Positions 19,694 through 59,079 of a DNA stretch of 64,000 bases are shown here, one piece after another. Each line of letters starts with the position of its first letter. Position 1 is the stretch's first letter. The position numbers and the translations under genes are program-made. Location of the stretch: NCBI RefSeq assembly GCF_013402875.1, contig NZ_CP058579.1, forward strand, positions 2,170,001 to 2,234,000, given 5' to 3'. The stretch comes from Halorarum salinum (GTDB taxonomy: Archaea > Halobacteriota > Halobacteria > Halobacteriales > Haloferacaceae). The notes beneath the pieces are model-generated. The model was not told the origin of the DNA. It saw only the letters and a list, made by a program, of their open reading frames with translations, and did not search any database.

Positions 19694-19851
19694 GTTGAAA
19701 CGGCCCGTACGGGACCTATCAATCTTCCGCTCGGACTCGCCGTTCGTCGTACCCGCCGTAGCAACGCGGATCCGGTCACCGTTCGAGGGGTTCGGCGGGG
19801 CCGACCGAACCGAAATCCCTTTAGGCGAATCGGGGGAAGGAACGGACGCGA

Positions 19852-20030: not shown

Positions 20031-20106
20031 TTGCGATCTTAGCGCTAACTTATCATTCCCGAGAGATACCTCTCAAAGCTAAACAATCTCAGGGAGGTGA
20101 GGGTGC

Positions 20107-21607: not shown

Positions 21608-22113
21608 GTTCAGGATGCGCCGAAGCGAACGAGATCGGCGAAGACCTGGAGCTTCGGATCACCGAGTCCGAATCCGCCCTCGAGCACGTTCCGAAGACGG
21701 AGACGTTCCGGTACGACGCGCGGACGACGACGCTCCTCGAGGGACGCCCCGAGCGTCCGCTGGCCGGCGTGCTTCTCTTGGAGGAAGGAACGCCGGTCGA
21801 AATCAAGACCACGCGTCCGTGGGTGAGGAACGGCGTAGGGCGGTGTCGCGGTCGATTCTACATCAAACAGCCGTCCCACGAGGTCCTCCTCGAAGCGGGC
21901 GGCGCCTACTACCTCGCCGTTTACGAACGGCGCCAGACGCCCTCCGGGCCCGAGGTGGAGATCGTCGCCGCCATCATCGTTCCCGCGAGTATCGTCGAGG
22001 AACTCCGTGGCTCCTGGTGCGAAACTGGCCGCGCTGACGGCCCGGTCGCGCGACTCTCGTGGACCGCGGTCCTCCGCGAGGATGACCTCGAGAGCGGGGT
22101 GGTCGTCGCATGA
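21604..22113 (+). CDS. PD-(D/E)XK-like nuclease-fold protein
   Basis: The 169-aa protein has GVLLLEEGTPVEIKTT, where E66-I-K68 is in the position of the ExK part of a restriction-endonuclease-like core, then a long basic segment RGRFYIKQPSHEVLLEAGG and strand YYLAVYER. It resembles Holliday-junction-resolvase or Cas4/RecB-like folds, but an upstream catalytic Asp is not certain. A paralogue with the same layout is at 59266-59781, just beyond the att repeat. Start GTG at 21604 overlaps the upstream TGA. Confidence 0.6.
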   Translation: MSSGCAEANEIGEDLELRITESESALEHVPKTETFRYDARTTTLLEGRPERPLAGVLLLEEGTPVEIKTTRPWVRNGVGRCRGRFYIKQPSHEVLLEAGGAYYLAVYERRQTPSGPEVEIVAAIIVPASIVEELRGSWCETGRADGPVARLSWTAVLREDDLESGVVVA

Positions 22114-23951
22114 GTCTCGACGCCCCGACGCCCGCAGAACCGCCGACGGACAACGGTGGGCTCCTCCGGCTTGAGGGCATCACGACCACTACCGAGCAGC
22201 TGCCGGAGCCCACTCGCCACGGTGGGAACCTCCACGTCGTCCTGAACGACCAGTACCGGCCGGCTGCGGAGATCGAACACGATTCCGGCGATCGCGACCT
22301 ACCCGACGGATCAGCATATCAGACCGCCCGCGCTCGGTGGTACGAGGCCGCGGACGCCGACGAAGTCCACACCGTCGAAACGCCGAAGGGATACGAGCGA
22401 GAGTACGTCGTTCTCGAGGACGAGTACGAACTCTTCGACGAGCCGGTCGCTGTCACGCTGAACTCGTCCAGGTGCGAACTCGGCCAGGTCACCAGCGCCG
22501 GGAACTTCCGCGCCTACTTCAAGTACAACCTCACGCTGAAACCACTGGACGACGACGGCGAGGTTCGCTGGTTCGGGACGCCGACCACGTCGCTGAACGT
22601 CACGATCCGCCCCCAGGACGCGGGGCTCGCCCGGAAGACCCAGGAGGAGGGAATCGTCCAGAAGTGGAGTCCGCCGTACGGGAGTGGCACGGAGATCAGA
22701 GCTCAGACGACTTGGGCGGAGAGTACCCAGGAGATTCAGGGCCGCATCGAGACGCTCCTGTACGACGTACTGGGCTACGAGTGGGACGACCTCGACGCTC
22801 AGAACGAGAGCCGAACGTTCTGGAAGAGCGAGGTCCACCACCGCGTCGCCGAGGAGGTCGCGCCGGAGATCGTCCACACGATGCGTCAGTCGGCGGAGCT
22901 CCTCGCTCGCCACGAGGCGGACCTCAAAGAGGAGACCGTCCACTCCGAGGGAACGTGGAAGATCGTGAAGCTTCGGACCGACGGCTGGGAGCAGCTCGGA
23001 TTTCCGATCCTCCGCGGCCAGGACGTTCAGATAAAGCTCTACATGCCGGATGCGCCGGCCGAGTATCTCGAGTACCCGATGGACCAGCCGAAGGTCGAGG
23101 TCTCTCTCGAGGGCCGTCCGCGTGGCGGAGACGCCTATCACGTCGATCGGTGGGAGCAGATTACGCACGTCCTCGAGTCCATCCTCCTCTCTCACCTGAG
23201 ATGGGCCGACGTCGGAACCGAGCACATCCTCCAGGACGACATGAGCTTGGGGCCGGCCGCGGATCTCCTCTCATGGGAGCATCCCGAGGGCCGTCGTGCG
23301 TGGCTTCGTGACCACTACGAGAGCCTCACGCCCCGCGTGTACGCCGAAGCTCGGAAGAGCCAGACGACGGCCGTGTACGACATCCTCCACAGTATCAAAC
23401 GCCGCGACATCGCGACGTATGCGGAGATCGCCCAGGATGTCGGGCTCGTCGAGCGGACGGTCCGCGGCCACGTCGCCCGTCTCACGGGGACCGCGAAGGA
23501 GCCGGGTATCCTGAAGACGATTCCCGACGCGGTCACGTTCGTCACGTTCAGTGCCGAGTGGTGGGAGGACGATGCTCGCGAGGCTCTGGACCGCGTCTAC
23601 CCGAACGACACGGCCGAGGACCGCTCCCGGCGCCGGCAGACGCGCGTCGAGGAACGCCTCTTGAAGCGGACGCTTGGTCTCACGCCCGCGTCCTCGAGCT
23701 CGTCCAGCGACGGCGAAAGCGAGGACGACCAGGTGCCCATCGTGGACGTCGACGACGACAGCGACCAGGAGGACGACAGGGACGATGACGATCGTGGTCG
23801 CGATGGCACACCGGACCAGCGTTGCTGGCGATACTTCCACGATGTCGACCTCGACGGCGCCCAGCTCGGGATCGCCCTCGACCGCGGGTACCTTCCGGAG
23901 GACCACGTCCGCGTCCGCATTGACGACTCGCCTCTGTTCAGCGGAGGCTGA
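22110..23951 (+). CDS. Large element protein with winged helix, replication candidate
   Basis: A 613-aa protein ending the left-arm operon. The first 400 residues are a large uncharacterised domain (I recall DUF7845 for haloarchaeal element proteins of this kind). Residues about 420-500 hold a winged HTH: YDILHSIKRRDIATYAEIA, LVERTVRGHVARL. An acidic Ser/Asp-rich linker follows and a short conserved C-terminal tail (WRYFHDVDLDGAQLGIALDRGYL). It is the largest DNA-binding-type protein of the left arm and could be the replication initiator, as inferred from size and position only. No Rep, polymerase or helicase motif was seen. Confidence 0.6.
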   Translation: MSLDAPTPAEPPTDNGGLLRLEGITTTTEQLPEPTRHGGNLHVVLNDQYRPAAEIEHDSGDRDLPDGSAYQTARARWYEAADADEVHTVETPKGYEREYVVLEDEYELFDEPVAVTLNSSRCELGQVTSAGNFRAYFKYNLTLKPLDDDGEVRWFGTPTTSLNVTIRPQDAGLARKTQEEGIVQKWSPPYGSGTEIRAQTTWAESTQEIQGRIETLLYDVLGYEWDDLDAQNESRTFWKSEVHHRVAEEVAPEIVHTMRQSAELLARHEADLKEETVHSEGTWKIVKLRTDGWEQLGFPILRGQDVQIKLYMPDAPAEYLEYPMDQPKVEVSLEGRPRGGDAYHVDRWEQITHVLESILLSHLRWADVGTEHILQDDMSLGPAADLLSWEHPEGRRAWLRDHYESLTPRVYAEARKSQTTAVYDILHSIKRRDIATYAEIAQDVGLVERTVRGHVARLTGTAKEPGILKTIPDAVTFVTFSAEWWEDDAREALDRVYPNDTAEDRSRRRQTRVEERLLKRTLGLTPASSSSSSDGESEDDQVPIVDVDDDSDQEDDRDDDDRGRDGTPDQRCWRYFHDVDLDGAQLGIALDRGYLPEDHVRVRIDDSPLFSGG

Positions 23952-24444: not shown

Positions 24445-24851
24445 CTATCGCGCCACCCGCTCCCGGATGCTCGCGGCCCGCTTCTCCCCGATGTCTGGCA
24501 CGGCCTCGAGGTCATCGCGAGACGCACTCGCGAGGTCCGCCTCCGACTCGAACGCCTCCGCGACCGCCCAGGACCACTCAGACCCGATGCCCGACACGCA
24601 CTCAACCACGCGCCGAAGCTCGTCGTTTCGCGGGTCGAGCACGACCTCGAGACGGCGCTCCATCTCCCTCTCCGAGATGTAGCCGCGCGAGTAGGTGAGC
24701 CGGATCTCTTCGGCGGTCTCTGGGTCCTCGAGTCGAGGTCACCGATCCACACCCGCAGGCCCGTCGGGAGCCGGTGCACGTAGCGGTCGAGGAGGAAGGT
24801 GCCGATCGCGATGACCCAGAACACCAACGCAAGTGATTCGAGGGCCGTCAC
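24445..24851 (-). pseudogene. One-TM protein with SHOCT-like and HhH segments, frameshifted
   Basis: In minus-strand order: a GTG start at 24851 overlapping the upstream TGA, one membrane helix (LESLALVFWVIAIGTFLLDRY), then GDLDS. The frame breaks near 24730 and continues one base over as EDPETAEEIRLTYSRGYIS, a SHOCT-like short helix pair, then a helix-hairpin-helix (LEAVPDIGEKRAASIRERV) at the end. A single missing base would explain it. The intact form would be about 135 aa. It is the last gene of the membrane operon; an HhH can bind DNA non-specifically, so this could tether DNA to the membrane. Confidence 0.6.
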
Positions 24852-25156
24852 GCCTCGACCCCCCGCTCGTCGACGTCCTCGACGAGCTCCTCGGTCGGCT
24901 CGACCACGGCCGCCCAGGCGTCCGCAACCGCGAGCCCGTGGTAGTGGCCGAGCAGGCCCGCCGGGACGCCCGAGACGATGAATAGCAGGCTCCCGCGGGC
25001 GCCCTCCAGCTGGGCCGACTCGAGGAGCAGCATCCCCGCGAGCGTGAACACGACCACCCAGGCGCTCAAGAAGTAGCCCAGGAACACGACCAGCGAGACC
25101 GCGGTGGCCGCCCGGCGCCGGAGGCGCGCCTCCCGCCGGGAGATGGACAGCGTCAC
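24848..25156 (-). CDS. Small membrane protein of the element operon
   Basis: A 102-aa protein from a GTG at 25156 that overlaps the upstream stop by 4 nt. It has two hydrophobic helices (ATAVSLVVFLGYFLSAWVVVF and LLFIVSGVPAGLLGHYHGLA) and an acidic C-terminus (VEPTEELVEDVDE). Topology suggests both termini face the cytoplasm. No family recognised. Confidence 0.65.
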   Translation of the reverse strand: MTLSISRREARLRRRAATAVSLVVFLGYFLSAWVVVFTLAGMLLLESAQLEGARGSLLFIVSGVPAGLLGHYHGLAVADAWAAVVEPTEELVEDVDERGVEA

Positions 25157-25449
25157 GGGAGCACTCCGTCGAGCAGCGCCCGCCACTCGACTGCCTGGGT
25201 AGCCTGCCACAGCTCTTGTGTGCGACTCCCGTCCCAGTTCACGATGCCGACCAGCAGCGCCAGCAGGAGGACGCCAGCGGCCACCTGCAGGTCGTGCGTG
25301 GCCCGCGCGCCTGCCGAGACGGCCATGCCCCCGACCGTGCTTGCCTTCTGGGCGTATAGGAGGAACGCGAGCAGGAGCGCGACCACGGCCACGCTCACGC
25401 CCTGGAGCCCGAGCATCGCGAGCGCCTGGGCGAGGAGGTCGCGAATCAC
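25153..25449 (-). CDS. Small membrane protein of the element operon
   Basis: A 98-aa protein from the GTG at 25449. Two hydrophobic stretches (VSVAVVALLLAFLLYAQK, LQVAAGVLLLALLVGIVNW) end in a hydrophilic tail with ELWQATQAVEWRALL. The short GTGA junctions on both sides show strict coupling. Unknown function. Confidence 0.65.
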   Translation of the reverse strand: MIRDLLAQALAMLGLQGVSVAVVALLLAFLLYAQKASTVGGMAVSAGARATHDLQVAAGVLLLALLVGIVNWDGSRTQELWQATQAVEWRALLDGVLP

Positions 25450-25673
25450 GCCGCGTCCCCTCCGATCGGGACGGGGTGACCCAGGAACGGCGGCCACCCA
25501 GGACGCCGCTCGCGACGGTCCTCGGTCGGCCACGTCCGCGCCGCCTTGTCGTGTGCCGAGAGCGGCGGGGGGTTCCAGTCGCCCTCGTCGTCCTCCTCGA
25601 GGGCCGCGATCGCCGAGTCGAGCGCCTCGAGCATGGCGGTCGCGACCTCGGCGACGAGCTCGAGGAGGCTCAT
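25446..25673 (-). CDS. Small acidic helical protein
   Basis: A 75-aa soluble-looking protein, ATG overlapping the stop of the 952-aa gene. The N-terminal 35 residues (LELVAEVATAMLEALDSAIAALEEDDEG) should form an amphipathic helix; the rest is Pro/Trp-rich (GDWNPPPLSAHDKAARTWP). Possibly a scaffold or chaperone for its neighbours; this is a guess from position. Confidence 0.6.
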   Translation of the reverse strand: MSLLELVAEVATAMLEALDSAIAALEEDDEGDWNPPPLSAHDKAARTWPTEDRRERRPGWPPFLGHPVPIGGDAA

Positions 25674-28528
25674 CGCCGTCCCCCGAGGTCGAACGTCACT
25701 TCGGTCTCGGGCGTGGCGGCCTCCTCGCGGCGCGACTGCCACCACGAGAACACCGAGTAGCCCGCGATACCGAACGCGACCAGGCCGCCGAGCGGCACGA
25801 TCTCCTCGACGCCCCCGGCGACCGCGCCCGAGACCGACCCGGGCCGGAGCACTTCGATCGAGAGCAGCGCCGACCCGGCGCTCACCGCACCGACGAGCAT
25901 CCAGCGCGGCCGGCCCCGGACGCTCGAGCGGCCCGTGGCGGCGACCAGGAGCACGACCAGGAGGACCCAGCCACCGACGATCCCCGCATCCCGGAGCGTC
26001 GTCTCGGGCGGGTTCTGGGTCCACGAGCCGCCTCCGCCGATGCCCGTGCCGCCGCCACTACTGTCGTCGCTGGTCGCCCCGCGGATGCGGAACGTCTCCT
26101 CGCCGTCGGTCGCGCTGAACTCGACGGCCTCGGCGTCCGCGTCGCTTTTCTCGAGGACGCGGCCCCGCGAGACCGAATAGAGCTCGTACGACTCGCCGGA
26201 GGTGGCCCCGTAGTAGCGGAGGAGGACGTCGTCGCTCGAGCTCACTTCGCCGGGCCCGAGGGTGAACGTCGGGTCGTCCGGGTTGGCGACGTGCACCGAG
26301 ACGTCGCCCGAGCTGGGCTCGGCCTCGAGCGGGATGGTCGTGACGCGGAACGTGTCGCCCTCCTGGGCGTTCGGGAGGTGGAGGTCCTGGTCACCGTCGG
26401 CGTCGATGACCACGTACTCGTCGGCCTCGCTCCAGCTCTCCTCGTACGTGTAGTGGACGCGGTCGCCCAGCCACGTCCCCGCGACCCCGATCTCAAAGCC
26501 GGTCGTGCGGAAGTCGAGCCGGACCTCGGAGTCGAGCGTCGAGTCGTCCGGCGTCGTCGGGTCGAGCACGGTGAGGTCGCCGTTCCGGACGTCGATCTTG
26601 TAGCCCGAGGCGTGGACGGCGACTGTGTCTCCCGCGTCCACTTTGCCATCGCCGTCGCCATCGTCGAGCTCGACCAGGAGCGTGGTCCCGTTCTGCAGCT
26701 CCCAGCGGTCGCTCGAGACCGACTCCCAGCTCCCCCCGTTCACACTGGTCTCGACCTCCCGAATCTCGTAGATGTGCGTGCTGAATGGGATGGTGAGCGT
26801 CGGTGTCTCTCGGTCGTCGGCGAACGTGTGTGAGACGTCATAGGACTCCTCCCAGCCGTTTGCAGCGTATTGAGTGGTCGCCTCCACCTGCGAGGAGTGC
26901 GAGTATTGCAGGTCGACCTGGGGGGTAGGGGCGTCCGCCGAAAGGGTGTCGTCGCCCACTTGGACGGTGACGGTGTTCGTCCCGTCCTGGAGCCACGACT
27001 CATCCCCCGTGTAGGTCACGGACTCCCCCTCCGCGAGCGTCCCCGAGTGCGACAGTGTCTCGTTGTTGATGGAAACGGCCGGGTCCCGCGTCTCGGTGTG
27101 CTCCTGGAGCGCCACGTCGACGTCCACCGTCCCGCCGCCCGAGACGGCCACGTCGAGCGAGTCCGACGACGTCGACAGGTCGAGCGCGCCCGAGGCCGTC
27201 TCACCGTCCTCGAGCGACCCGAACTCTGCCGACGACCCCGTCGCCGGGTCGGTGACTGTCGCGGAGTTGACGGGTTTCGCGATGCCGAGCGACACATCGG
27301 GATATGCAGACAGGCCAAGGGGCCCGCTCCCGTCGTTCGTAGTTATCCAGTCATCCGACGCGGACGTATCCGTCGCGATCCTGACCAAGTCCTCACTCCC
27401 GTCACCGTCGGTCGAATCGGTCACAAACTCCAGCGCATACGTCTCTCCCGCCACAACCGACGGGGACGAATCAAGTTGTATCTCTTGCTCGCCGGTCGAC
27501 CACTCCGGAGACCACGTCGCGATTTTGTCCCCCTCCCGGGATGTCCAGTCGGGCCCCTCGTTCACGAGATACACGTCCACCGTCGGCCCGTAATCCGCCC
27601 CGGCCGTCGACTCGATATTAACCGTTAGCGAGTCTAACTCGCCCGAGGACGTCGGAACGACTTTCAACTCGGGATTTAGTGCGCCGTCCCCGGTGTCGCC
27701 CGCAAGGTCCGCATTGTCGCCCGCGTCGCCCGAACCGTCGTCGTCCACCGGATTGTAGGTGGACGACGGGACCGACGCCGTCAGCGTCACCTCGGGGTCG
27801 CCGTTTGCGGGGCCGGTCGGGTCAAGATCCCCCGCCACGTCGATCGACACGGTACCGCCGTCGGCCACGTCCGCCACGGACTCGTTATCCCACTCGGTTG
27901 CGGTCGAGCCCGTGAACGTCACGTTCGGCGCGGTCACCGCCTCGGGGTTGCCGAGGTCGTACGAGTAGCTCGAGCCGTCCTGTGCCGGTGTGGCCTCGAT
28001 GACCGTCTCGCCCTCGAACGTCACCGTATTTGAACTGAACTTCGGAATCTCGAAGATGAGCAGCCCGTTCCGCGCCTCTACCTGGGAGGTCCATTCGGTC
28101 CCGTCCTCGTGGACGCCGTGGACGACTTTCGGCAGGTAGCCGACCGAGTCACGGATGGCGTCCGCCGGCACCGCGACCTCGCGCCCCTCGTGCTCGGTGT
28201 CGTCCCGGAAGACGAGCGCGACGCTCCCGCTGCCGACGACCGACCCGTTCGTGTAGTCGGTCGCCCGATCGGGCGTCGTCACCACGACCTCGAGGCTCGA
28301 GGCGTGGTCGGAGGCCATCACCGAGCCCTCGAGGTCGCTCGCGCGGAGCGAGGCGTTCTCGCCGACCGGGAGGTCCTCGTGGACGTTACTGTCCGGGAGC
28401 GTCACGAACCCGTCCGGCGGCGCCGTCGACGCGGCCGCCGTGTCGACGAGCGCGGCCGGCCCGATCGGCGCGCCGACCAGGAGCAGCGCCACCACGATCG
28501 TCGCGAACTGCCGGAGCCGCGCGCTCAT
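25670..28528 (-). CDS. 952-aa secreted surface protein with C-terminal TMs
   Basis: Signal peptide at residues 1-33 (TIVVALLLVGAPIGPAALVDTAAAS). Residues 40-830 form a long extracellular region with beta-rich segments, many N-x-S/T sites and acidic Ser/Thr/Asp spacers; one stretch resembles CARDB/adhesion-type strands (TVTVQVGDDTLSA). A Gly-rich hinge (GGGTGIGGGGSWTQ) precedes three C-terminal helices (IVGGWVLLVVLLVAA, MLVGAVSAGSALLSIEVL, LGGLVAFGIAGYSVFSWW). This suits a cell or particle surface protein, for attachment or fusion. Preceded by SD-like ggaggtg. Confidence 0.75.
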   Translation of the reverse strand: MSARLRQFATIVVALLLVGAPIGPAALVDTAAASTAPPDGFVTLPDSNVHEDLPVGENASLRASDLEGSVMASDHASSLEVVVTTPDRATDYTNGSVVGSGSVALVFRDDTEHEGREVAVPADAIRDSVGYLPKVVHGVHEDGTEWTSQVEARNGLLIFEIPKFSSNTVTFEGETVIEATPAQDGSSYSYDLGNPEAVTAPNVTFTGSTATEWDNESVADVADGGTVSIDVAGDLDPTGPANGDPEVTLTASVPSSTYNPVDDDGSGDAGDNADLAGDTGDGALNPELKVVPTSSGELDSLTVNIESTAGADYGPTVDVYLVNEGPDWTSREGDKIATWSPEWSTGEQEIQLDSSPSVVAGETYALEFVTDSTDGDGSEDLVRIATDTSASDDWITTNDGSGPLGLSAYPDVSLGIAKPVNSATVTDPATGSSAEFGSLEDGETASGALDLSTSSDSLDVAVSGGGTVDVDVALQEHTETRDPAVSINNETLSHSGTLAEGESVTYTGDESWLQDGTNTVTVQVGDDTLSADAPTPQVDLQYSHSSQVEATTQYAANGWEESYDVSHTFADDRETPTLTIPFSTHIYEIREVETSVNGGSWESVSSDRWELQNGTTLLVELDDGDGDGKVDAGDTVAVHASGYKIDVRNGDLTVLDPTTPDDSTLDSEVRLDFRTTGFEIGVAGTWLGDRVHYTYEESWSEADEYVVIDADGDQDLHLPNAQEGDTFRVTTIPLEAEPSSGDVSVHVANPDDPTFTLGPGEVSSSDDVLLRYYGATSGESYELYSVSRGRVLEKSDADAEAVEFSATDGEETFRIRGATSDDSSGGGTGIGGGGSWTQNPPETTLRDAGIVGGWVLLVVLLVAATGRSSVRGRPRWMLVGAVSAGSALLSIEVLRPGSVSGAVAGGVEEIVPLGGLVAFGIAGYSVFSWWQSRREEAATPETEVTFDLGGRR

Positions 28529-28757
28529 CGCGCCACCTCCCGAACCGAGGGGTGGGGGGTTGACTGTATTCCCTTTTCCCCGCGCGGGCGCGTATGGCCT
28601 GGGAGCGCGTTCGTCGACGAATTGTCTGTCAGCGGCTCACAGAACGGCCAACCCGGCCAAATCCGGCCGGTCTGAGCGGTATCCTTTCCAGCGACACCCC
28701 CGGCCGTCCATTTCCGGGGGGTCGCCCCGATCGGGGCGCTCGAGGTCGTCGACGAGC
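28529..28757. other. 229-nt gap inside the membrane operon
   Basis: The only sizeable gap in the operon, between the ATPase stop and the 952-aa protein's start (minus strand). It contains an SD-like gggaggtg (minus strand) close to the downstream ATG. A second promoter for the surface-protein segment is possible. No gene is evident. Confidence 0.35.
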
Positions 28758-30131
28758 TCACGCGCCGAGCACCTCCTGGACCTCGGGGAACCGGATGTGT
28801 AACTGGCCGGGTACTTTGAACTCTGCCGGGACGTCGCTCCAGGAGAACTCCGCGAAGTTCTGACTGTTCCACGAAAGCGCCTGGCCGAGCCGCATTCCCT
28901 GGGTATAGTTCCGCGCCATCGGCGCGTCGCCCATCCCGACGGTCTTCCCCGTCGGGTTGTCGGCGCCGGCGAGCGTGATTCGCCACCGCTGCTTCTTCCG
29001 CATGAGGTTGTGGAGGTCCTCGGGGTCGTGGCCGATGCCGTACAGCGAGAACTTGTTCCGCCGGGCGTCGACGTACTTGTCTCGGACGGCCGAGATGCGG
29101 TCGTGGAGCCGGTGGTAGTCGTTGCTCGCGTGCTCGGGCATCCAGTTCCCGATCTCGTCGGCGAGCAGCGAGACCCAGATAGGCGGGCCGTTGTCGATCT
29201 TGTCGACGACGTACGCGAACCACCACATCTCGGACGGGGTAACGTCCTCCGGCCCGAGCTCCTCGTCGGCCGCGACGTCCCAGGCGCTCGTGTGGCCGAC
29301 CTCCTGAATCTCGTCGGCCTCCCGGAACGCCTGGGTGGCGCCCCTGAACCGGGGGTCCGGGTACACCACGTGGAACATGCCCTCCCGGAGCACCTCGTGG
29401 TTCAGCTCGCGAATCGACGAGTACCGGACGACCTCGTGAACCATGCGCTCGAGGTCGACCGGGATGGCGTCCATGTCGTCGCTCGGCGGCTCCAGGAGCG
29501 CCTCGACCTCGAGGTCCGCGGGGAGGCACAGTCGCGTCCAGGCCCGCAGCGGGAGCCACTCGGCCCGCGCCGACGAGCCGCGCCACACGACCGCGTCCGG
29601 GTTCACCTCGAGGTTCCGAATGACCGCGAGCGCGATGGCCATCGTCGACTTTCCCGAGCCTTTCGGGCCGAACGCGCCCCAGTCGGTGCCGCCGATCCGG
29701 AGGTCCTGGACGACGTCGGGCCGCTCGGCGAGCCACCGGAACAGCGCCCGGCGCTCCCGCGGGAGGTCGGTGAGGTCGTCGTGTTCGATCCGGAGCTTGT
29801 CCAGGTCGTCGAGATGAACCAGGTGGTCCAGGAACGCCCGCGGGTGGTGGATGATGGGATGGCTCCCGCCTTCGATGGCGGGGTGGTCCATCCGCTCGAG
29901 GTCCGCGAGGACGTTCGACCAGCACCGGAAGCCGAACGCCCGCCGCATGTTCTCGCCGACCGTGTGCCGGTTCTTCTCGCCCGTCAGCTGTCGCGTCTCG
30001 TCGAGCCCCGGGGCGGTCGCGCCCTCGAGGCGGGCTTTCAGGAGCTCGGGGTCCTGGACGACCTCGAGCATACTGTGCGCGTCGTGAGCGGCCGTCTCGG
30101 GCCGCCGGTTGATGGTGTCAGATTCGCTCAT
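28758..30131 (-). CDS. P-loop ATPase of the membrane operon (HerA/FtsK/VirB4-like candidate)
   Basis: The 457-aa protein has Walker A GPKGSGKST at residues 155-163 and a Walker-B-like hydrophobic strand IWVSLLADEIGNW with D325-E326. The downstream segment QRWRITLAGADNP could be a sensor strand. The N-terminal 150 residues and the C-terminal 110 are unrecognised. No signal or TM. The D-E pair and the spacing fit ATPases that pump DNA or protein through membranes, such as HerA/FtsK or VirB4, but I see no diagnostic motif to pick one. Five nt after the 311-aa gene. Confidence 0.7.
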   Translation of the reverse strand: MSESDTINRRPETAAHDAHSMLEVVQDPELLKARLEGATAPGLDETRQLTGEKNRHTVGENMRRAFGFRCWSNVLADLERMDHPAIEGGSHPIIHHPRAFLDHLVHLDDLDKLRIEHDDLTDLPRERRALFRWLAERPDVVQDLRIGGTDWGAFGPKGSGKSTMAIALAVIRNLEVNPDAVVWRGSSARAEWLPLRAWTRLCLPADLEVEALLEPPSDDMDAIPVDLERMVHEVVRYSSIRELNHEVLREGMFHVVYPDPRFRGATQAFREADEIQEVGHTSAWDVAADEELGPEDVTPSEMWWFAYVVDKIDNGPPIWVSLLADEIGNWMPEHASNDYHRLHDRISAVRDKYVDARRNKFSLYGIGHDPEDLHNLMRKKQRWRITLAGADNPTGKTVGMGDAPMARNYTQGMRLGQALSWNSQNFAEFSWSDVPAEFKVPGQLHIRFPEVQEVLGA

Positions 30132-30136
30132 GATAG

Positions 30137-31072
30137 TTATGTGATAGAGCCGGTGCCGGTCTCGCCACGGAACCCGCGCGCGGCCGTGACCTCGCTCGCC
30201 CGCTTCCCCAGCGCGTCAGCCGCGCGATTGAACGCCGGCAGGAGGTACTCGGCCGCCCAGCCCTCCCGGACGAACATGTCCTCGGGAGTGGGGTCCGTGC
30301 CGATGAGCCGGCGCCGGAGCGGCCGCTCGAAGTACGGCGCCGTGACCGTCTCTCGGTCGATGTTCGCGTACGAGGCACCGACGACCCGAAGCGACCACGC
30401 GAGCAGCGCCTCGGAGCCCGCGAAGCCCTCGAGGAGCTCGCCCAGCGCGGCCGCCTGTTGCCCGTCCAGTTCCCCAAAGGCGGGCCGCATGAGCGGGTAC
30501 TGTTGGTCGAGCGGGTCGATCGGGTCGACGTCGTCGCCGTCCCGATCGTCGTCGAGGTGGTCGACGCGCTCGACCGCGGCCCAGCGCGCGACCTCGTGAG
30601 CCGCGTGGAACGCCGGCAGGAGGTCTTTGGCGACCATGCCCCGCCGGACCTCGAGCGCGAGCTCGGCCGGCATCTCCTCGACCGTCCCCCAGGGCCGCCC
30701 GAGCAGCGCGGAGACCGTCGGGGAGTCGGCCGCCGTCCGCGAATACCAGGCGTCCTCGAGCTGGCCGACCGTCTGGATGACGAGGTCCTGCTGCCACTCG
30801 AGCAGCGCCCGCCGATCGGGGAAGCCCTCGAGGACGTCGACGAGGAGGTCCGCCTGGTCGTGGACGAGCTTCGCCGAGGCGGGCCGCGTCGGGGCGTCCA
30901 CGCCGGCGCTCGTGAGCGTCTCGTGGACGTGGGTCCGGATGGCCTCGGCATCGAACGCGACGCCGCCACGGGCGTCCTCGGCGCTCTCAGCGGGGGCGTC
31001 GTCCAGCATGTCCGCGAGCGCGTCCATGCCGGCCTCGAGGCCCTGGACGACCCGGACCTCCGACTCAGTCAT
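30137..31072 (-). CDS. Hypothetical protein with an internal duplication
   Basis: A 311-aa soluble, acidic protein. Two halves look like repeats: the first has LLEWQQDLVIQT and GMVAKDLLPAFHAAHEVAR, the second has LLAWSLRVVGAS and GWAAEYLLPAFNRAADALG; the LLPAF motif with its flanking helices is shared. This points to a tandem helical-bundle fold. It overlaps the upstream gene by 8 nt and is followed by the ATPase, so a partner or adaptor of the ATPase is plausible. No family known. Confidence 0.7.
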   Translation of the reverse strand: MTESEVRVVQGLEAGMDALADMLDDAPAESAEDARGGVAFDAEAIRTHVHETLTSAGVDAPTRPASAKLVHDQADLLVDVLEGFPDRRALLEWQQDLVIQTVGQLEDAWYSRTAADSPTVSALLGRPWGTVEEMPAELALEVRRGMVAKDLLPAFHAAHEVARWAAVERVDHLDDDRDGDDVDPIDPLDQQYPLMRPAFGELDGQQAAALGELLEGFAGSEALLAWSLRVVGASYANIDRETVTAPYFERPLRRRLIGTDPTPEDMFVREGWAAEYLLPAFNRAADALGKRASEVTAARGFRGETGTGSIT

Positions 31073-32834
31073 CCGCGGGCGCCTCCTCGCCGTCCTCGCG
31101 GCCGCTGTGGCCGTTCCTGACGGGTGCCTCGTCGGTCCCCGTCCCCACGTAGCGGTCGAACAGCTTGCCCATCTGCGACTCGCTCCGGTCGTCCAGGAGG
31201 TCGCGCCGATCGGCGTGCGACTCGGCCTCGCTCTCCGTGTAGTTCCGGAACCAGTCGTCCCAGGATTTGGCGTCCGCCAGGCCGCGAGCGTGCGTCAGCA
31301 TCGACCCGACGGCGTGGTGGTAATGGATGGGTGCGAGGTTCGCGTGGAGCTTGCCGTCACGCGGCTGGGCGATCTTGAACGCGAACAGCAGCACGCTCCC
31401 GACGAGCAGGCCCAGCAGGCCCGTTCCCGCCGCGAGGCTCCCGATGCCGTACGAGAAGCCGAGCGCGGCGATGCCGGCGATGTACGGAACCGGGTGGAGC
31501 TGGCGGTTGCCCTCCTCGTCGTACGTGATGAGGTCGGGCCACTCGAGCGCGTGGTGCTCGGGCTGGTAGTCCAGCGGCGCCTCGTCCTCCGGGTCGAGGA
31601 GGTAGAGCTCCTCGATCGGGCCGTCCACCTCGATCCGCGTCTGCATGTTGCCCTCGACCTCGAGGTCCGACGTCGCGCCCCGGGCCCGCGCCCAGAACCG
31701 CCGGATGCCCTTCCGGATGGCCGACCGCTCGCCGGTGTCCCCGCGAGCGAACTTCGCCACGTTGAACCGGGCTTTCAACACTCCGGGGGCGTCCTTCGGG
31801 TCGCCGTCCTCCTCGGCCTCCTCGGCCTCCTCGGCCTCTTTGGCAGCCTCCTCGACGGCGTCCGGGTCCGTCGGGTCGAACCCGTCCGCGAGTTGGAACT
31901 GCAGGAACCCGGCGCCGTACGTGGTGCGCCCGAACCACTCGACCGCGATGACGCCGAGCAGGATGCCGCCGGCCGCCGAGACCAGATACGGCGCGCGGAT
32001 GAGCGTCGCCGACATCCAGTCCCACGCGAGGACGACGAAGAACATCCCCACGACCGCCGTGAGGACCCACCAGATGGCCGATATTTGCGGGCCGGCTTTG
32101 GCCTTCTCGACCGCTTTCCGGCCGCCGTAGAGCGTGAACACCGTCGAGATGAAGAACGGGAAGAGCAGCGAGAGCATCCCCCAGCCGAGGCGGGCGCCCG
32201 CGCTGTTCGTCTCGACTGGGAGCGTCGCCTGACTCGAGGCGTGGTAGAACGTCCAGCGCGTGTCGGTCGGGTTCCGGAGACAGCTGGGGTCGGTCGGTCC
32301 GCGGACGCACATCACGGTCCGGACCCGGTCGTCGTAGTGCTCGCGGAGGTCGATCTCCGCGTAGTCGTAGCCGCCCGCGAACGTCACCGAGCGCGAGTAG
32401 GTGGTGACGTTCACCGCGGCCCGCTGCTGGGAGGTGGTGCCGTCCTCGTGGGTCACCGTTTTCTGCCCGACCTGGTAGTGAGCGACCTCGACGACGTAGT
32501 CCTCCTCGGGAACGCCGTAGGCGCGCTTCGACCAGAGCTGCAGGTGGTTCCGTTTGACCGTCTCGCCCGGTTGCATGTACCGCCAGGAGTTGCTGTCCTC
32601 GGCCTCGTCGACGAGCAGGCCCGTCGGGAGCGTCTTTACCGCGAACTCGCCGTACTGGCCGTTCTGCCGAATGGAGTCGGGCGCGTTCGCCGGTTTCTCG
32701 CCGCCCGGCGTGAGCTCCTCGAGCGTGAGGTTGCGGGCCGCCGCGCCCCCGTCGTCATTCTGTGCAACCGCGGGCGCGACGGCTCCGGCGACCACGAGCA
32801 CGACGAGCGCCAGGAGCACGGCGGACCGCCTCAC
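31065..32834 (-). CDS. 589-aa membrane protein with signal peptide
   Basis: GTG start at 32834 gives a signal peptide (RRSAVLLALVVLVVAGAVAPAVAQ). A lumenal/extracellular domain (residues about 30-220) is followed by three TM helices (LGWGMLSLLFPFFISTVFTL, AIWWVLTAVVGMFFVVLAW, APYLVSAAGGILLGVIAV), a charged cytoplasmic region including an EEAEEAEEAEE run, and a later hydrophobic hairpin (IAALGFSYGIGSLAAGTGLLG, LVGSVLLFAFKIA). The size and topology recall polytopic channel or scaffold subunits such as VirB6, but no homology is evident. Confidence 0.7.
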   Translation of the reverse strand: MRRSAVLLALVVLVVAGAVAPAVAQNDDGGAAARNLTLEELTPGGEKPANAPDSIRQNGQYGEFAVKTLPTGLLVDEAEDSNSWRYMQPGETVKRNHLQLWSKRAYGVPEEDYVVEVAHYQVGQKTVTHEDGTTSQQRAAVNVTTYSRSVTFAGGYDYAEIDLREHYDDRVRTVMCVRGPTDPSCLRNPTDTRWTFYHASSQATLPVETNSAGARLGWGMLSLLFPFFISTVFTLYGGRKAVEKAKAGPQISAIWWVLTAVVGMFFVVLAWDWMSATLIRAPYLVSAAGGILLGVIAVEWFGRTTYGAGFLQFQLADGFDPTDPDAVEEAAKEAEEAEEAEEDGDPKDAPGVLKARFNVAKFARGDTGERSAIRKGIRRFWARARGATSDLEVEGNMQTRIEVDGPIEELYLLDPEDEAPLDYQPEHHALEWPDLITYDEEGNRQLHPVPYIAGIAALGFSYGIGSLAAGTGLLGLLVGSVLLFAFKIAQPRDGKLHANLAPIHYHHAVGSMLTHARGLADAKSWDDWFRNYTESEAESHADRRDLLDDRSESQMGKLFDRYVGTGTDEAPVRNGHSGREDGEEAPADD

Positions 32835-33268
32835 GGGAGTCCCCCCGTCCGGAAGTCGGCCCGGTACGCGACCGCCAGGACGACGAGCACGGTCGTGAGG
32901 AGCACGAAGTGCCACCACTCCAGGATGATGAGGTCCGAGAGCCCGAGCGCCCCCAGCCCGATCGTCATCGCCGTGGCCGTCAGTACCGGCACTTCGGGCG
33001 CCAGCGTGAGCACGAAGCCGATCGCCTCGCCCGCCGTCTGGAAGGTCGTCGCGGCCCAGCCGACGAGCGCGACCACGCTCACGAGCACGATGTTCAGCGC
33101 GCCGCCCGTCCCGCGCTTCGCCCGGCCGCCGAAGCCCGCGAGGGCCTCGCGGCGGTCGTTCGCCTCCTGGTAGGACTCGTACGCCCAGGCGAGCGCGACC
33201 AGCCCCAGGACGCCCGTCAGCACGAGCGCCGGGTGGCTCGTCGCCCAGGTCACCGGGTTTACGGGCAT
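32831..33268 (-). CDS. Membrane protein with four hydrophobic helices
   Basis: 145 aa, ATG at 33268. Helices: ALVLTGVLGLVALAWAYESY, ALNIVLVSVVALVGWAAT, VLTATAMTIGLGALGLSDL and FVLLTTVLVVLAVAYR, with a positively charged loop EANDRREALAGFGGRAKRG after the first, suggesting cytoplasmic side. Followed by the 589-aa gene with a GTGA overlap. Confidence 0.68.
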   Translation of the reverse strand: MPVNPVTWATSHPALVLTGVLGLVALAWAYESYQEANDRREALAGFGGRAKRGTGGALNIVLVSVVALVGWAATTFQTAGEAIGFVLTLAPEVPVLTATAMTIGLGALGLSDLIILEWWHFVLLTTVLVVLAVAYRADFRTGGLP

Positions 33269-33326
33269 GTAAGGCCCTCCGGCGGCGGTGTCTGTTCTCG
33301 GTCGGTCCTCTCGGTTTCGTGATGTA

Positions 33327-33563
33327 TCATAGTGTGTCGTCCACCTCGTCTTTGGCGTCCCAGAGGTCCGCGAGCCGGAGTCCCAGGTAACACAGCGTGA
33401 GGAACAGGAACGGCCCGCGGAGGTCCGGCAGCGCCGTCTCCGGGGCGATGAACCGGATGTACGTCGCGACCACGCTGAACCAAATCTCCTCGCTGCTCGC
33501 GACCCACGCGAACAGGTTCCCCAGGGCGGCGACGAGCGGGCCGGCGGCGTCGCGGAGGCTCAT
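33327..33563 (-). CDS. Small membrane protein
   Basis: 78 aa, ATG at 33563 overlapping the stop of the next upstream gene (ATGA). One clear helix region (LVAALGNLFAWVASSEEIWFS) and a second weak one (GPFLFLTLCYLGLRL), then an acidic tail. Unknown. Confidence 0.6.
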   Translation of the reverse strand: MSLRDAAGPLVAALGNLFAWVASSEEIWFSVVATYIRFIAPETALPDLRGPFLFLTLCYLGLRLADLWDAKDEVDDTL

Positions 33564-34030
33564 CTGAGCGCCTCCAGCGCGCCTTCGGCGGCGTCGCTTC
33601 CCGGGATGAGGTAGAGGATGGCGAACGCGGTCACCGCCAGGATGGTGACCAGGAGCGCCACCGTGAACGCGGCCGCGATCGGGGCCGCGATGCCGAGCGC
33701 CTCGAGCGAGCCCTGGATGCCCGCGTACAGCGTTTCGATGCCGCCGACGGCCGCACTCTCGACGATGGTGTACGGCGTCGCGATCGGCCCGGCGACGTCG
33801 AGCATGACGTTCCGGACGGTCGTGAACGCGTAGATGGCCCAGCCGAGGACGTACGCGGCCGCGTCGAGGATGCCCCCGACGACCCACTCGGCGATGATGA
33901 CCCGGACCCACTGCTCGGGGTTGCTCGCGATGGTGAGCAGCGTCGAGACGACCGGCGCGAGCGCCTGGACCGTCCGAACGTCGGACCAGCTCACGCCGCG
34001 GACGGTCAGTCCGTCCGGGTTCGTGCTCAT
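33560..34030 (-). CDS. Membrane protein, three to four helices
   Basis: 156 aa. Hydrophobic segments include VIIAEWVVGGILDAAAYVLG, IATPYTIVESAAVGGIETLYA and AAFTVALLVTILAVTAFAILYL. Short loops and few charges resemble small integral membrane proteins of vesicle- or pleomorphic-virus-like particles. Coupled to both neighbours by ATGA-type overlaps. Confidence 0.65.
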   Translation of the reverse strand: MSTNPDGLTVRGVSWSDVRTVQALAPVVSTLLTIASNPEQWVRVIIAEWVVGGILDAAAYVLGWAIYAFTTVRNVMLDVAGPIATPYTIVESAAVGGIETLYAGIQGSLEALGIAAPIAAAFTVALLVTILAVTAFAILYLIPGSDAAEGALEALR

Positions 34031-34410
34031 GCGAACCTCCGGCGGGCCCAGATGAGCAGCGCCGTCGCGAACACGACCTCGAGCGAGAAGAACACCGGAG
34101 CGAACACCGGACTCGCCTCCACGGCGGCCTCAAAGCCGGCGGCCCAGGAGAGGCGGAGCGTCTCCGCGCCGCCCCCACCGATGGCCGTGATGATGTTGAC
34201 GTACATGCGCTCGACGGCGCCGAGCGCCTCGAGATGGATGAGGACGTACGCCTCGAGGATGGCGATCCACCCCGACATGAGCACGAGCCACCCCGCGCCC
34301 AGGAGCGTCCCGACGAGCTTGCCGATGAGGATCTCGCCGCCGTCGACGAACTCCTCCTCGAGGGGAACGCTGCCGCCGCCGCCGGTGTCGAGGTTCGGTC
34401 CAGAGCTCAT
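34027..34410 (-). CDS. Membrane protein, two to three helices
   Basis: 127 aa beginning MSSGPNLDTGGGGSVPLEEE, so the N-terminus is hydrophilic. Helices: GKLVGTLLGAGWLVLMSGWI, YVLIHLEALGAVERMYVN (partly), FAPVFFSLEVVFATALLIWARR. The similar start to the next upstream gene (MSSSGPRLDQ) suggests an ancient duplication between these two genes. Confidence 0.65.
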   Translation of the reverse strand: MSSGPNLDTGGGGSVPLEEEFVDGGEILIGKLVGTLLGAGWLVLMSGWIAILEAYVLIHLEALGAVERMYVNIITAIGGGGAETLRLSWAAGFEAAVEASPVFAPVFFSLEVVFATALLIWARRRFA

Positions 34411-34412
34411 GG

Positions 34413-34868
34413 TCAGTCGTTCTCGTCCTCCAGGTCGCCGCCCGTGTCGAGCTCGATGAACGGCAGGTCGAGCCCGGTGAACGTGTCGAAGTCCATCGCG
34501 TCCAGGTACCACACGATGATGAGCATGAACAGCACCACCACGATGGCACCCAGGACGGCGATGAACGGCCCGAGCTGCATCCACGGGTCGAGCCCGACCG
34601 CGACCGCCGCGGTGTTCCACACCGATTGCAAGAACCGAGCGGGGGCGCCGAACCCGGCGTCGATGAGCAGCACGGTGACGTTCGTGAACGCGTCCGTCGG
34701 CGAGATGATGAGATTCGCGAACGCCTCCCCCAGGCCGATGAGGATGGTGAACGCGGCCGCTGCCAGCCCGCCGACGCCGGCGACGAACGTTTCAGCGAAC
34801 CCGCCCAGGTCCCGCGAGAACGTGATGTACGTCCGCGCCTGGTCGAGTCGCGGTCCACTCGAGCTCAT
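34413..34868 (-). CDS. Membrane protein paralogous-looking to its neighbour
   Basis: 151 aa starting MSSSGPRLDQARTYITFS. Two helices: GGLAAAAFTILIGLGEAFANLII and FIAVLGAIVVVLFMLIIVWYL, followed by an acidic tail ending DTGGDLEDEND. The N-terminus and helix spacing resemble the 34027-34410 product, so the two may be paralogues. Three nt after the spike-like gene. Confidence 0.65.
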   Translation of the reverse strand: MSSSGPRLDQARTYITFSRDLGGFAETFVAGVGGLAAAAFTILIGLGEAFANLIISPTDAFTNVTVLLIDAGFGAPARFLQSVWNTAAVAVGLDPWMQLGPFIAVLGAIVVVLFMLIIVWYLDAMDFDTFTGLDLPFIELDTGGDLEDEND

Positions 34869-34871
34869 CGG

Positions 34872-36368
34872 TTACTTCCCCACGAAGCGGCCGAGTCCGA
34901 GCATCGTCATGAGGCCGACCACGCCGCCCGCCAGCCAGTTGTACAGGCTGTGGAACGGACTCCTGCCCGCCGAGTCGCCCCAGAACCCGCCCGTGCCGCC
35001 CGCGACGGGCTGCAGCGCGTTGTACTGGCTCTCGACCAGTTTGACCTCGGTCTCCACCACGTACGTCGAGTCGGGTTGGACCGTGTCGTCGACGGCGATC
35101 GTGGTGTTCTTCTCGCCGAGCGAGTCGGAGAGGTCGATCCACTCGTCGTCGGAGACGTTCTCCGCGTCCGTGTCGCCGACGCCCTCCGCGTAGCGGAGCT
35201 GGACGTACCGCTCACCGAGGAACGTCTGCTCGGTCGTGAGCTCGAGGTTGCCGTGGGTGAGGTCGTACGCCGTAGGCACGCTCAGGCGCGTCGAGGAGTC
35301 CCAGAGGTACGGGAAGTTCGGGTACGCGTCGGCCTCCGGGAACAGGATGCTCGTCGTCCCCGGCGAGTCCTGCATCCGGTACTCGACGTTGTAGTAGACG
35401 AGCTTGTGGATCGTCGCGTCGGTGAACGTGTCGCCCATGCCCTGCAGGCTCGACGCTTCGATGACGCCGCCCTCCGGGCGCTCGGTGACCTTCACGTCCG
35501 TGTAGTCGTCGTCCTCGTCGGTCGAGGTGTCCAGGACCCGCTCGTCGCCGAAGTCCCACTGGGACTTCTTCTCGACGTTCAGGCCGGTCATGGTGACCGT
35601 CGCGTCGCCGTCGCGGACGACCACGCGGACCTCCTCGACGGCGTCGAGCGAGCCGTCACCCGAGCCCTCGACCGGGAGCTGCCCGAGCTGCTCCTGGTAG
35701 ATGACGCCCGAGGCCGTGCTGTTCGCGAACACGTCGTCGGCCGTGCCGTCTCGCGAGGAGTTGGCGACCGCTTCGACGTAGTCGCCGTCGTCGTCACGGA
35801 CCTGGATGGCGACCTCGGAGCCCGCGGTGAGCTCGTCGACGTTCACGACGAACTGGAGGTACCGCTTCTCGACGTCGTCGGTGAGCGAGCCCTCAGCGTA
35901 CGCGGCGTGGCTGCTCGAGCCGTCGGTGACGTCGGCGGTCACTTCGATGGAGTCGACGCCGGAGCCGGTCGCGCCGTCGGTGTCGCTGACGGTCGCGCCG
36001 CTCTCGGTCCAGTTGGTCGTGTCGAGCCAGGTGACCGAGTTGTTTTCCTCGCCGTCGACGCGCGGGTACCTCCCCAGCGCGTCGGCGTCGATCAGGTCGG
36101 CGCGGTACGCGACGTTGATGTCACCCTCCGTGCCGTTCACGGTGGCGTTCAGGTCGGTCACCTCGCCGTTGTCGTTCTCGTACTCGAGCCACCCCATCTC
36201 GGTGCGGTCGTGGCTCTCGACGGTCAGCTCGTCTTCGACGATCTTCGTTTCGGGGTACTGGTCGGCCTCGGGGTTCGCCCCGAGGGTGGCCGCTGCAGCG
36301 ATGCCCGCCGAGCTCACGAGGAGCAGGACCATCGCGAACGCGGCGAAGCGTGTTCTGGTGAGTTTCAT
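34872..36368 (-). CDS. Spike-like secreted protein with C-terminal anchor
   Basis: 498 aa. Signal peptide (RTRFAAFAMVLLLVSSAGIAAAA), a 430-residue acidic extracellular domain rich in Asp, Ser and Thr with repeated N-x-S/T sites (VNGT, ENNS, ANSS, ANST), and a single anchor helix near the C-terminus (YNWLAGGVVGLMTMLGLGRF). The long Ser/Thr/Asn-rich ectodomain plus one anchor is the plan of pleomorphic-virus or vesicle spikes and of S-layer-type proteins. First large gene of the operon. It may be the adhesin. Confidence 0.72.
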   Translation of the reverse strand: MKLTRTRFAAFAMVLLLVSSAGIAAAATLGANPEADQYPETKIVEDELTVESHDRTEMGWLEYENDNGEVTDLNATVNGTEGDINVAYRADLIDADALGRYPRVDGEENNSVTWLDTTNWTESGATVSDTDGATGSGVDSIEVTADVTDGSSSHAAYAEGSLTDDVEKRYLQFVVNVDELTAGSEVAIQVRDDDGDYVEAVANSSRDGTADDVFANSTASGVIYQEQLGQLPVEGSGDGSLDAVEEVRVVVRDGDATVTMTGLNVEKKSQWDFGDERVLDTSTDEDDDYTDVKVTERPEGGVIEASSLQGMGDTFTDATIHKLVYYNVEYRMQDSPGTTSILFPEADAYPNFPYLWDSSTRLSVPTAYDLTHGNLELTTEQTFLGERYVQLRYAEGVGDTDAENVSDDEWIDLSDSLGEKNTTIAVDDTVQPDSTYVVETEVKLVESQYNALQPVAGGTGGFWGDSAGRSPFHSLYNWLAGGVVGLMTMLGLGRFVGK

Positions 36369-36376
36369 TGATTGAA

Positions 36377-36760
36377 TTAGGTGTTGCAGCGGTTCCGGTC
36401 GCCACCCGTGGCTGCTGCACTCTCCAGCGCCTCGCGGACCCGGTCCTCGCGGACGTGCTCGAGGCCACCGTAGCGGTCGGCTGACTCGAGGACCTTCACG
36501 GGCGTCGCCGGGACGATTTCGCCGCCACCGTCCGTCGCCGGTGTCGGGGTGGTCCCCTTCTCGGCGACCGCGTCCTCGGCTTCACGCCGGAGTCGGCTGG
36601 CGAGGACGTCGAACGCGACGTTCCCGAGATACGTGAGCGTCGCCAGGCCGAAGGTGGCGCCGGCGGCCGCGCCGATCGGGCCGCTCCAAGTCGCCGAAGC
36701 GAGCACGGTCGCGATCGTGCCGTAGCCGGCAAGGTGGACGACTCGCTCGGAACGATTCAT
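36377..36760 (-). CDS. Small membrane protein with charged tail
   Basis: 127 aa: two hydrophobic helices (TIATVLASATWSGPIGAA, ATFGLATLTYLGNVAFDVLA) then a 75-residue charged cytoplasmic tail with HVREDRVREALESAA. Start overlaps the upstream stop by 4 nt. No family recognised. Confidence 0.62.
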   Translation of the reverse strand: MNRSERVVHLAGYGTIATVLASATWSGPIGAAAGATFGLATLTYLGNVAFDVLASRLRREAEDAVAEKGTTPTPATDGGGEIVPATPVKVLESADRYGGLEHVREDRVREALESAAATGGDRNRCNT

Positions 36761-36996
36761 GCGGCTGCCCTTGCGTCCAGGTCGTTCTCATCGAGTACCG
36801 CTGGGAGGTGCTCGACGCATAGCCCCACGGCGACCCCACCCAGCCGGTAGATCGTGGCTGCATCGCCACAGCGCCCGGCCGGCGTAACGTACCGACAGCG
36901 GGCGCGCTCGGCCGGTGGTGGTGTGTCTGTTCCTCGTCGGTCGTCTCCCTCCGAAAAGGAGGGTTTCGGGCCGCGTGGCCCGCTGTTTCGGATCAT
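36757..36996 (-). CDS. Small Cys/His-rich protein at the head of the operon
   Basis: 79 aa from ATG at 36996. Cys residues in CRYVTPAGRCGD and GLCVEHLP give a likely C...C...C-x2-H zinc site near residues 34-65. It precedes the membrane proteins and could be a regulatory or assembly factor. A divergent AbrB-like gene lies about 200 nt away on the plus strand. Function unknown. Confidence 0.6.
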   Translation of the reverse strand: MIRNSGPRGPKPSFSEGDDRRGTDTPPPAERARCRYVTPAGRCGDAATIYRLGGVAVGLCVEHLPAVLDENDLDARAAA

Positions 36997-49238: not shown

Positions 49239-49345
49239 TAGATTTGGCTCGACTGCGAGACACGATTTATTCCGTCACCGCTTCACTTTCACTTCACCTC
49301 CATGGCCCGACCATTTACCTAGCGAACCAGTTCGAACGATTGCAA

Positions 49346-52873: not shown

Positions 52874-52891
52874 CAATAGTTATAACTATTG
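52874..52891. promoter_or_regulatory. Perfect 18-bp palindrome between two divergent genes
   Basis: caatagttataactattg reads identically on both strands. It is centred 19-28 nt from the ATGs of the flanking genes (52855 minus, 52910 plus), where the TATA box (tataact) of both would lie. Such a site can act as a symmetric operator or a two-way TATA element. Confidence 0.6.
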
Positions 52892-52909
52892 CATATTGTA
52901 GTGGTAATT

Positions 52910-59023: not shown

Positions 59024-59079
59024 CCATGTTTAGAAGCTCTCAGACGGGCGATATAGTACGAATTCCGGCACGGGAATCG

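Follow-up and report, generated by a model that had tools for sequence, protein, structure and literature searches.

A conserved haloarchaeal gene cassette with a packaging-type ATPase, a probable dissemination module of a tRNA-integrated virus-like element in Halorarum salinum

LSV-48N (PP151251), a Haloferax virus shown to produce lemon-shaped particles (PMC12714723), is a haloarchaeal integrative element with a tyrosine integrase, a Dam methylase and, as reported, a DUF7845 replication protein (Rep; PMC13107129). In Thermococcales, the spindle virus PAV1 is reported to possess a DUF7845 protein (PMC12934983, PMC13107129) together with two membrane-anchored lectin-type proteins (PMC12934983). 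Gene 8 of the Thermococcus plasmid pTN2 is homologous to ORF375 of PAV1 (Krupovic and colleagues, PMC3543421). The pTN2 gene 8 cassette is common to the A3 VLP of Methanococcus voltae; the function of the gene 8 product family was called obscure in 2013, and the family was likened to ABC transporters (PMC3543421). On the pR1SE/apHPV plasmids, MCM or Orc1 genes for replication lie next to the gene of a VirB4/HerA/B204-like ATPase (PMC10818511). The pT26-2 family, integrative plasmids of Thermococcales and Methanococcales, is described as having a core module in which membrane proteins are accompanied by a protein with a carbohydrate-binding domain and by a HerA/VirB4/B204-like ATPase (PMC6972569). 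Here we describe a sixteen-gene operon within a stretch of 64,000 nucleotides (hereafter the window; positions 2,170,001-2,234,000 of the 4.02-Mb main contig) of the haloarchaeon Halorarum salinum. We propose that this operon is probably the particle-assembly and DNA-packaging (dissemination) module of a virus-like integrative element 39 kb in length.

A tRNA gene at the left end of this element is the integration target (Table 1). This gene is presumably a tRNA-Trp as judged from its intron, an intron of ~105 nt being typical of haloarchaeal tRNA-Trp. The last 13 bases of the tRNA gene recur exactly just past an integrase gene. In one congener (G312), the sequences that correspond to window positions 20,031 and 59,080 adjoin each other with nothing in between, and a second empty site is found in another congener (G026), of which the tRNA region lacks the element. 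The stretch 19,800-20,031 exhibits 94-96% identity in both congeners. From the repeats at the tRNA end and the empty sites, therefore, the window holds an integrated element of ~39.1 kb (20,018-59,092), which reaches well beyond the operon. All the features expected of an integrative element at a tRNA gene were thus identified: the integrase, the att sites as direct repeats starting from the 3' end of the tRNA gene, and the empty site in relatives. The element also encodes a DUF7845 protein scoring 41.6 bits against PF25227 (cut-off 27), which assigns it to the Rep-Arvir domain. The DUF7845 family, named Rep-Arvir, includes a rolling-circle replication initiator (PMC13107129). A YFKY motif within the domain is a candidate for the catalytic tyrosine motif.

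The sixteen genes of the operon, all co-directional on the minus strand from 24,445 to 36,996 and mostly overlapping, are as the initial annotation of this DNA had described them. Their junctions are mostly 4-nt overlaps (one of 8 nt) or spacings of 2-8 nt, with two larger gaps of 58 nt (33269-33326) and 229 nt (28529-28757). The genes that were scored exhibit a GC content at third codon positions of ~0.83-0.97 and positive coding scores. By these coding statistics and by a gene order recurring at some 60 haloarchaeal loci, the operon is well beyond chance. The "duplicated-fold" protein of that annotation is p311 (311 amino acids, aa), of which the domain repeat is visible in the family consensus. 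The four small genes listed at the end of the operon are present, the last of them in a broken form: its 72-aa open reading frame (ORF, 24445-24663) is the C-terminal part of a ~134-aa protein with a transmembrane segment (TM) and a helix-hairpin-helix (HhH) motif, of which the intact relatives are 132-139 aa long. The frameshift in this gene may be genuine, or it may stem from an error in sequencing. No significant Pfam match was obtained for the ten operon genes searched, and the sole significant PHROG match in the operon is that of the ATPase to phrog_22963.

Table 1. Features of the integrated element, in window coordinates. Locus counts are from iterated profiles and count the window in, except where "other loci" is stated.
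Feature	Position	Strand	Evidence
Intron-containing tRNA gene, integration target	19852-20030	+	Rfam RF00005, 45.3 bits; missed by ARAGORN
attL core CCCTCCGACCCCA, tRNA 3' end (last 13 bases)	20018-20030		exact 13-bp repeat
DUF7845 protein, Rep-Arvir family, putative replication initiator	22110-23951	+	PF25227 1.4e-10; phrog_15150 3e-68
TM + HhH protein, frameshifted near 24,738	24445-24851	-	PF14520 2.3e-9 (72-aa ORF)
102-aa membrane protein	24848-25156	-	without homolog among compared loci
98-aa two-helix membrane protein	25153-25449	-	36 loci
75-aa small protein, overlaps surf952 stop	25446-25673	-	refined gene call
surf952, 952 aa: signal peptide, large ectodomain, three C-terminal membrane helices	25670-28528	-	hydropathy; 56 loci
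ATPase, 457 aa, FtsK/HerA superfamily, phrog_22963	28758-30131	-	profiles, predicted model
p311, 311 aa, soluble, tandem-duplicated domain; adjoins ATPase gene	30137-31072	-	consensus; 62 loci
mp589, 589 aa: signal peptide, ectodomain, several membrane helices, cytoplasmic parts	31065-32834	-	hydropathy; 60 loci
mp145, 145 aa, three-helix membrane protein	32831-33268	-	hydropathy; 53 loci
mp78, 78 aa, small membrane-type protein	33327-33563	-	27 loci
mp156, 156 aa, two-helix membrane protein, layout similar to mp151	33560-34030	-	alignment; 60 loci
mp151 paralog, 127 aa	34027-34410	-	hhalign, alignment; 60 loci
mp151, 151 aa, two-helix membrane protein	34413-34868	-	60 loci
sp498, 498 aa	34872-36368	-	AlphaFold2, Foldseek; 56 loci
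127-aa small protein, N-terminus weakly hydrophobic	36377-36760	-	homologs at 7 other loci
79-aa Cys/His protein, zinc-finger-like	36757-36996	-	sequence; homologs at only 2 other loci
Tyrosine recombinase/integrase beside attR	57957-58964	+	Pfam integrase domains; phrog_1 7.7e-15
attR core, same 13 bp, just past integrase gene	59080-59092		exact 13-bp repeat

LSV-48N shares with the element its integrase (E-value = 2e-50), its Dam methylase (1e-88) and one further gene, LSV29 (2e-15). Its genome is smaller (24.9 kb versus 39 kb). Like the operon, it has a block of small membrane proteins and a large surface protein, the product of gene 12, laid out like surf952 with a signal peptide, a long ectodomain and three terminal helices. 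Profile searches of the cassette core against the LSV-48N proteins revealed no convincing homolog. A 24.35-kb contig of another species carries the cassette together with an LSV-48N-type integrase (3.6e-85), Orc1/Cdc6 (2.5e-98) and a DUF7845 protein resembling the one encoded in the window (3.7e-118). Similarly, on a 37.3-kb contig whose 15-bp ends are identical, the cassette is accompanied by an LSV-48N-type integrase and a Rep. As judged from these matches, related backbones carry either the LSV-48N structural block or the cassette of the window. This exchange of blocks on related backbones is the main reason for reading the operon as a dissemination module.

The cassette was compared with 60 further genomic regions and one plasmid region containing most of it. 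These loci were selected by their ATPase, and the counts in Table 1 describe ATPase-bearing cassettes. At ~60 haloarchaeal loci the genes follow one another as in the window, from sp498 through the small membrane proteins, mp589, p311 and the ATPase to the surface protein, with surf952 standing ahead of mp589 in a few of them, while the identity of the cassette proteins between loci is mostly 20-45%. At ~24 loci the mp151 and paralog profiles match one same ORF, and some elements may have a single such gene. The flanks vary. Recurrent among them are integrases (27 loci), DUF7845 (17), Orc1/Cdc6 (16) and MCM (10), these cluster names being read from the sequences and, for DUF7845, backed by Pfam/PHROG matches.

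The ATPase is present in 70 of 391 haloarchaeal genomes, belonging to 24 of 86 genera, and p311 in 33 of the 148 genomes of the host's family, adjoining the ATPase wherever a comparison could be made. This patchy distribution is not that of an ordinary operon of all haloarchaeal genomes; the two other species of the host genus and Haloferax volcanii lack the ATPase. The nearest ATPases, in Halorussus, Halobellus and Haloarcula, are 72-79% identical to that of the window. Being absent from the congeners yet so similar in other genera, the ATPase sequences fit a horizontal spread of the cassette elements. The cassette is also found on plasmids. The Halosegnis marinus plasmid NZ_CP119803 (163 kb) apparently contains two copies of parts of the cassette, plus MCM and a type B DNA polymerase. 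On pNG300 (NC_006391) the ATPase and surf952-like genes adjoin across the record start, with no match to sp498; this plasmid and related Haloarcula plasmids are possibly a reduced form of the cassette.

The initial annotation had seen no clear homology mark in the operon. This was mistaken for the ATPase, which matches phrog_22963 with an E-value of 7.7e-12; of the 43 family members, 37 also match it. The GxxGxGKST and DE motifs are conserved in the family. An AlphaFold2 model built from 43 sequences has a pLDDT of 92.6, and its best Foldseek matches in the PDB, with a probability of 1.00, are HerA, VirB4, FtsK and the packaging NTPase B204 of STIV2 (TM-score of 0.70 on B204). HerA and VirB4, with which that annotation had proposed to compare the protein, are thus both among the best matches, HerA outranking VirB4. 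On the evidence of these fold matches, the predicted model places the family among the DNA-pumping ATPases of the FtsK/HerA superfamily. A profile made from haloarchaeal ATPases only, leaving out pTN2, finds pTN2 gene 8 at 73.5 bits, and gene 8 itself is a nearly full-length member of phrog_22963 (9.5e-181). As far as profiles can tell, then, the ATPase belongs to the pTN2 gene 8/PAV1 ORF375 family, the link to PAV1 being that of PMC3543421, and shares its family with the ATPases of PAV1, the pTN2-type plasmids of Thermococcales and the A3 VLP. The modelled fold would also give this family a function, that of a DNA pump.

Outside haloarchaea, relatives of the ATPase are found in other archaea of the phylum and in pTN2. 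No other cassette protein has relatives in the phylum's other archaea searched, and pTN2 exhibits no homolog of sp498, mp589, p311 or surf952. In PAV1-like pairs an ORF137-type partner precedes the ATPase, without sequence relation to p311; homology of p311 to PAV1 ORF137 received no sequence support from hhalign. At three loci of other archaea (L141, L143 and L144), a 117-132 aa protein lies directly upstream of the ATPase and small membrane proteins lie downstream, an arrangement that recalls the ORF137-ORF375 pair.

A different reading of the cassette is an archaeal machine of the conjugation type for contact-dependent DNA transfer. In it the ATPase would be a VirB4/CedB-like motor, the two-helix proteins would act as pilin-like or channel subunits, mp589 would form the channel, and the surface proteins would serve as mating adhesins. 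Besides HerA, the ATPase model indeed matches the VirB4 proteins of R388 and Thermoanaerobacter. The mp151 protein exhibits a weak match to TrbL/VirB6 below the cut-off (E-value = 0.014), and its profile weak matches to 74-aa pilins (0.16-0.6), none of them significant. The DUF7845 family is also reported in integrative and conjugative elements, and has been compared structurally with Rep_trans proteins, NicK of ICEBs1 among them (PMC13107129). However, the whole genome contains no VirD4/TraG-type coupling protein (PF02534, found in five control genomes), which makes conjugation less likely. The cassette has a single pump ATPase, and the non-structural genes point to LSV-48N, a virus. We thus consider conjugation rather unlikely.

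In the AlphaFold2 model (pLDDT 85.9), sp498 exhibits a signal peptide, an all-beta ectodomain and a C-terminal helix. According to Foldseek, a region of the predicted fold resembles the jelly-roll of family-11 carbohydrate-binding modules (CBM11-like) and the turret of HFTV1. Over its full length sp498 has no counterpart among solved or viral structures, and no pleolipovirus spike is among the fold matches shown. From the jelly-roll resemblance and the lack of a whole-structure match, sp498 is therefore a candidate receptor-binding spike that would not be of the pleolipovirus type. Spindle viruses likewise keep lectin-type membrane-anchored proteins (PMC12934983). The three terminal helices of surf952 (hydropathy helices at 848, 876 and 910) and PMC9259645 brought to mind the fusexin Fsx1. 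At the sequence level, no PDB entry matches surf952 at E-values up to 5, though Fsx1 is deposited (7P4L), and on sequence a fusexin identity is not supported, although surf952 may have a more remote match by fold.

The protein mp151 is a candidate envelope or coat subunit. It is paralogous to the 127-aa protein encoded next to it (107 columns aligned by hhalign at a probability of 98%); hhalign did not establish mp156 as a third paralog. Spindle-shaped archaeal viruses have a hydrophobic two-helix hairpin as their major capsid protein, and the cassette encodes two-helix proteins in tandem. Profile searches with these proteins gave no match to the solved coat proteins of spindle viruses, nor to His1, and so lent no support to a spindle coat-protein identity of the small proteins.

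Two large surface proteins and a carbohydrate-binding-like fold would also suit a structure for surface adhesion or antagonism, built to the benefit of the host and merely riding on the element; archaeal dark-matter islands often encode membrane systems (PMC4158269). We regard this as very improbable. From element to element the cassette stays constant and its flanking genes vary, a DNA-pump ATPase and the recurrent linkage with integrase and replication genes fit element transfer better, and no toxin-like variable module was seen.

The proposal of a particle or DNA-export system in the initial annotation is upheld by the mobile element, the DNA-pump ATPase, the carbohydrate-binding-like surface protein, the conserved cassette and the LSV-48N genes, whereas in the pleolipoviruses and the pR1SE-type plasmid searched, representing analogues that it named, the profiles found no convincing homologs of the cassette apart from the accessory HhH protein. 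Pleolipoviridae such as HRPV-1 and HGPV-1 resemble the cassette in having a spike with a signal peptide and a C-terminal anchor, small membrane proteins and a late ATPase gene. The cassette profiles have no convincing homologs in HRPV-1, HGPV-1 or His1, and the pleolipoviral set of spike, VP3-type matrix protein and ATPase was not found. Membership of the structural block in pleolipoviruses, His1, pR1SE/apHPV or LSV-48N was rejected on these profile searches. A Halfvol2-type provirus is not supported either, because the Haloferax volcanii control genome has no match to phrog_22963.

The pR1SE/apHPV plasmids have, like the cassette, a membrane and surface gene block with one ATPase, and MCM or Orc1 nearby. 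By the same logic, the cassette could load element DNA into host-derived membrane vesicles in the manner of pR1SE, with unrelated proteins. Its occurrence on plasmids, the one of Halosegnis marinus among them, and on the 37.3-kb contig with identical ends agrees with such an export. However, the core proteins have no convincing homolog on the apHPV plasmid pHALXA03, and neither the S8 peptidase (ORF7) nor ORF6, the apHPV hallmarks, nor homologs of apHPV cluster 2 were found for the cassette. Plasmid-vesicle export is on these grounds decidedly unlikely, while sequence alone cannot separate a vesicle from an enveloped virion. One protein is clearly common to both systems: pHALXA03 (L122, 1195-1581) encodes a homolog of the accessory HhH protein of the cassette (5e-27).

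Returning to the particle-assembly and packaging module, we infer particle formation, excision, replication, packaging and the role of each subunit from the gene content as follows. The integrase would excise the element from the tRNA gene and the Rep-Arvir protein would replicate the resulting circle. Signal peptides would bring sp498 and surf952 to the cell surface, where C-terminal membrane helices would hold both. The tandem two-helix proteins (mp151, its paralog and probably mp156, with mp78 and mp145) may crowd into the membrane and shape it as coat or matrix subunits. The membrane docking site for the HerA/FtsK-type ATPase would be formed by mp589 with p311, the ATPase would pump element DNA into a budding membrane particle, and release would proceed without lysis. 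Attachment of the particle to a new host would be the task of the carbohydrate-binding-like surface proteins.

Several points weigh against this model. The particle, the excised circle and the expression of the genes are predictions from sequence. None of the cassette proteins can be matched at the sequence level to a known capsid, matrix or spike protein, and the two-helix proteins lack a match to solved spindle-virus coat proteins. No matches were found in phage records or in IMG/VR, the IMG/VR scans being narrow (three ATPases, one alignment). Enzymes of the ATPase superfamily also act in conjugation and in DNA repair, and members of the ATPase family are encoded by elements classed as plasmids (pTN2, pNG100-400).

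We found no earlier description of the cassette in the literature searched, of which the supplements of PMC13107129 and PMC10818511 may list some of the elements. The cassette is conserved and, as proposed above, probably the dissemination module of a patchy yet widespread family of haloarchaeal elements, of the known kind of virus-like integrative elements with a packaging-type ATPase. The chances appear evenly balanced that these elements represent widespread, unrecognised haloarchaeal membrane-particle viruses (or vesicle-transmitted proviruses), with a structural set unrelated in sequence to known virus families, an ATPase lineage linking them to PAV1 and Thermococcus plasmids, and replication and integration genes exchanged with lemon-shaped viruses. 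If the proposed role of the cassette is right, about one haloarchaeal genome in six would carry a dissemination machine whose genes were functionally unannotated in the searched family libraries. Such machines could explain part of the heavy gene exchange among haloarchaea. The carriers include the cultured genera Halobellus, Halorussus and Haloarcula, for example Halobellus inordinatus YC20, Halorussus amylolyticus YC93 and Haloarcula argentinensis DSM 12282.

Other genes of the element are a DUF4326 gene, two adenine methylase genes and a low-GC cargo comprising a McrB-like AAA protein, a D12 methylase and a PDC-S31 candidate defence gene. The segment 44,643-50,398, with a GC content of 43-57%, encodes the 1076-aa AAA_5 (McrB-like) protein, a 453-aa protein with a weak match to TnsA-like endonucleases, and the D12 adenine methylase. 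It is probably a restriction-type defence cargo. Near it lie the PDC-S31 gene (52,889-53,707) and a gene for an HNH protein (41,996-42,820). The 3' part of the integrase gene and the att region are repeated 5.3 kb downstream in a 998-bp copy with 95% identity (repeat region at window positions 58,252-64,000 plus 593 bp beyond; contig 2,233,597-2,234,593), probably what is left of a second element integrated in tandem. The D12 methylase gene, too, is duplicated in part: 292 bp of it (49,284-49,575) recur at 63,313-63,604 with 87% identity.

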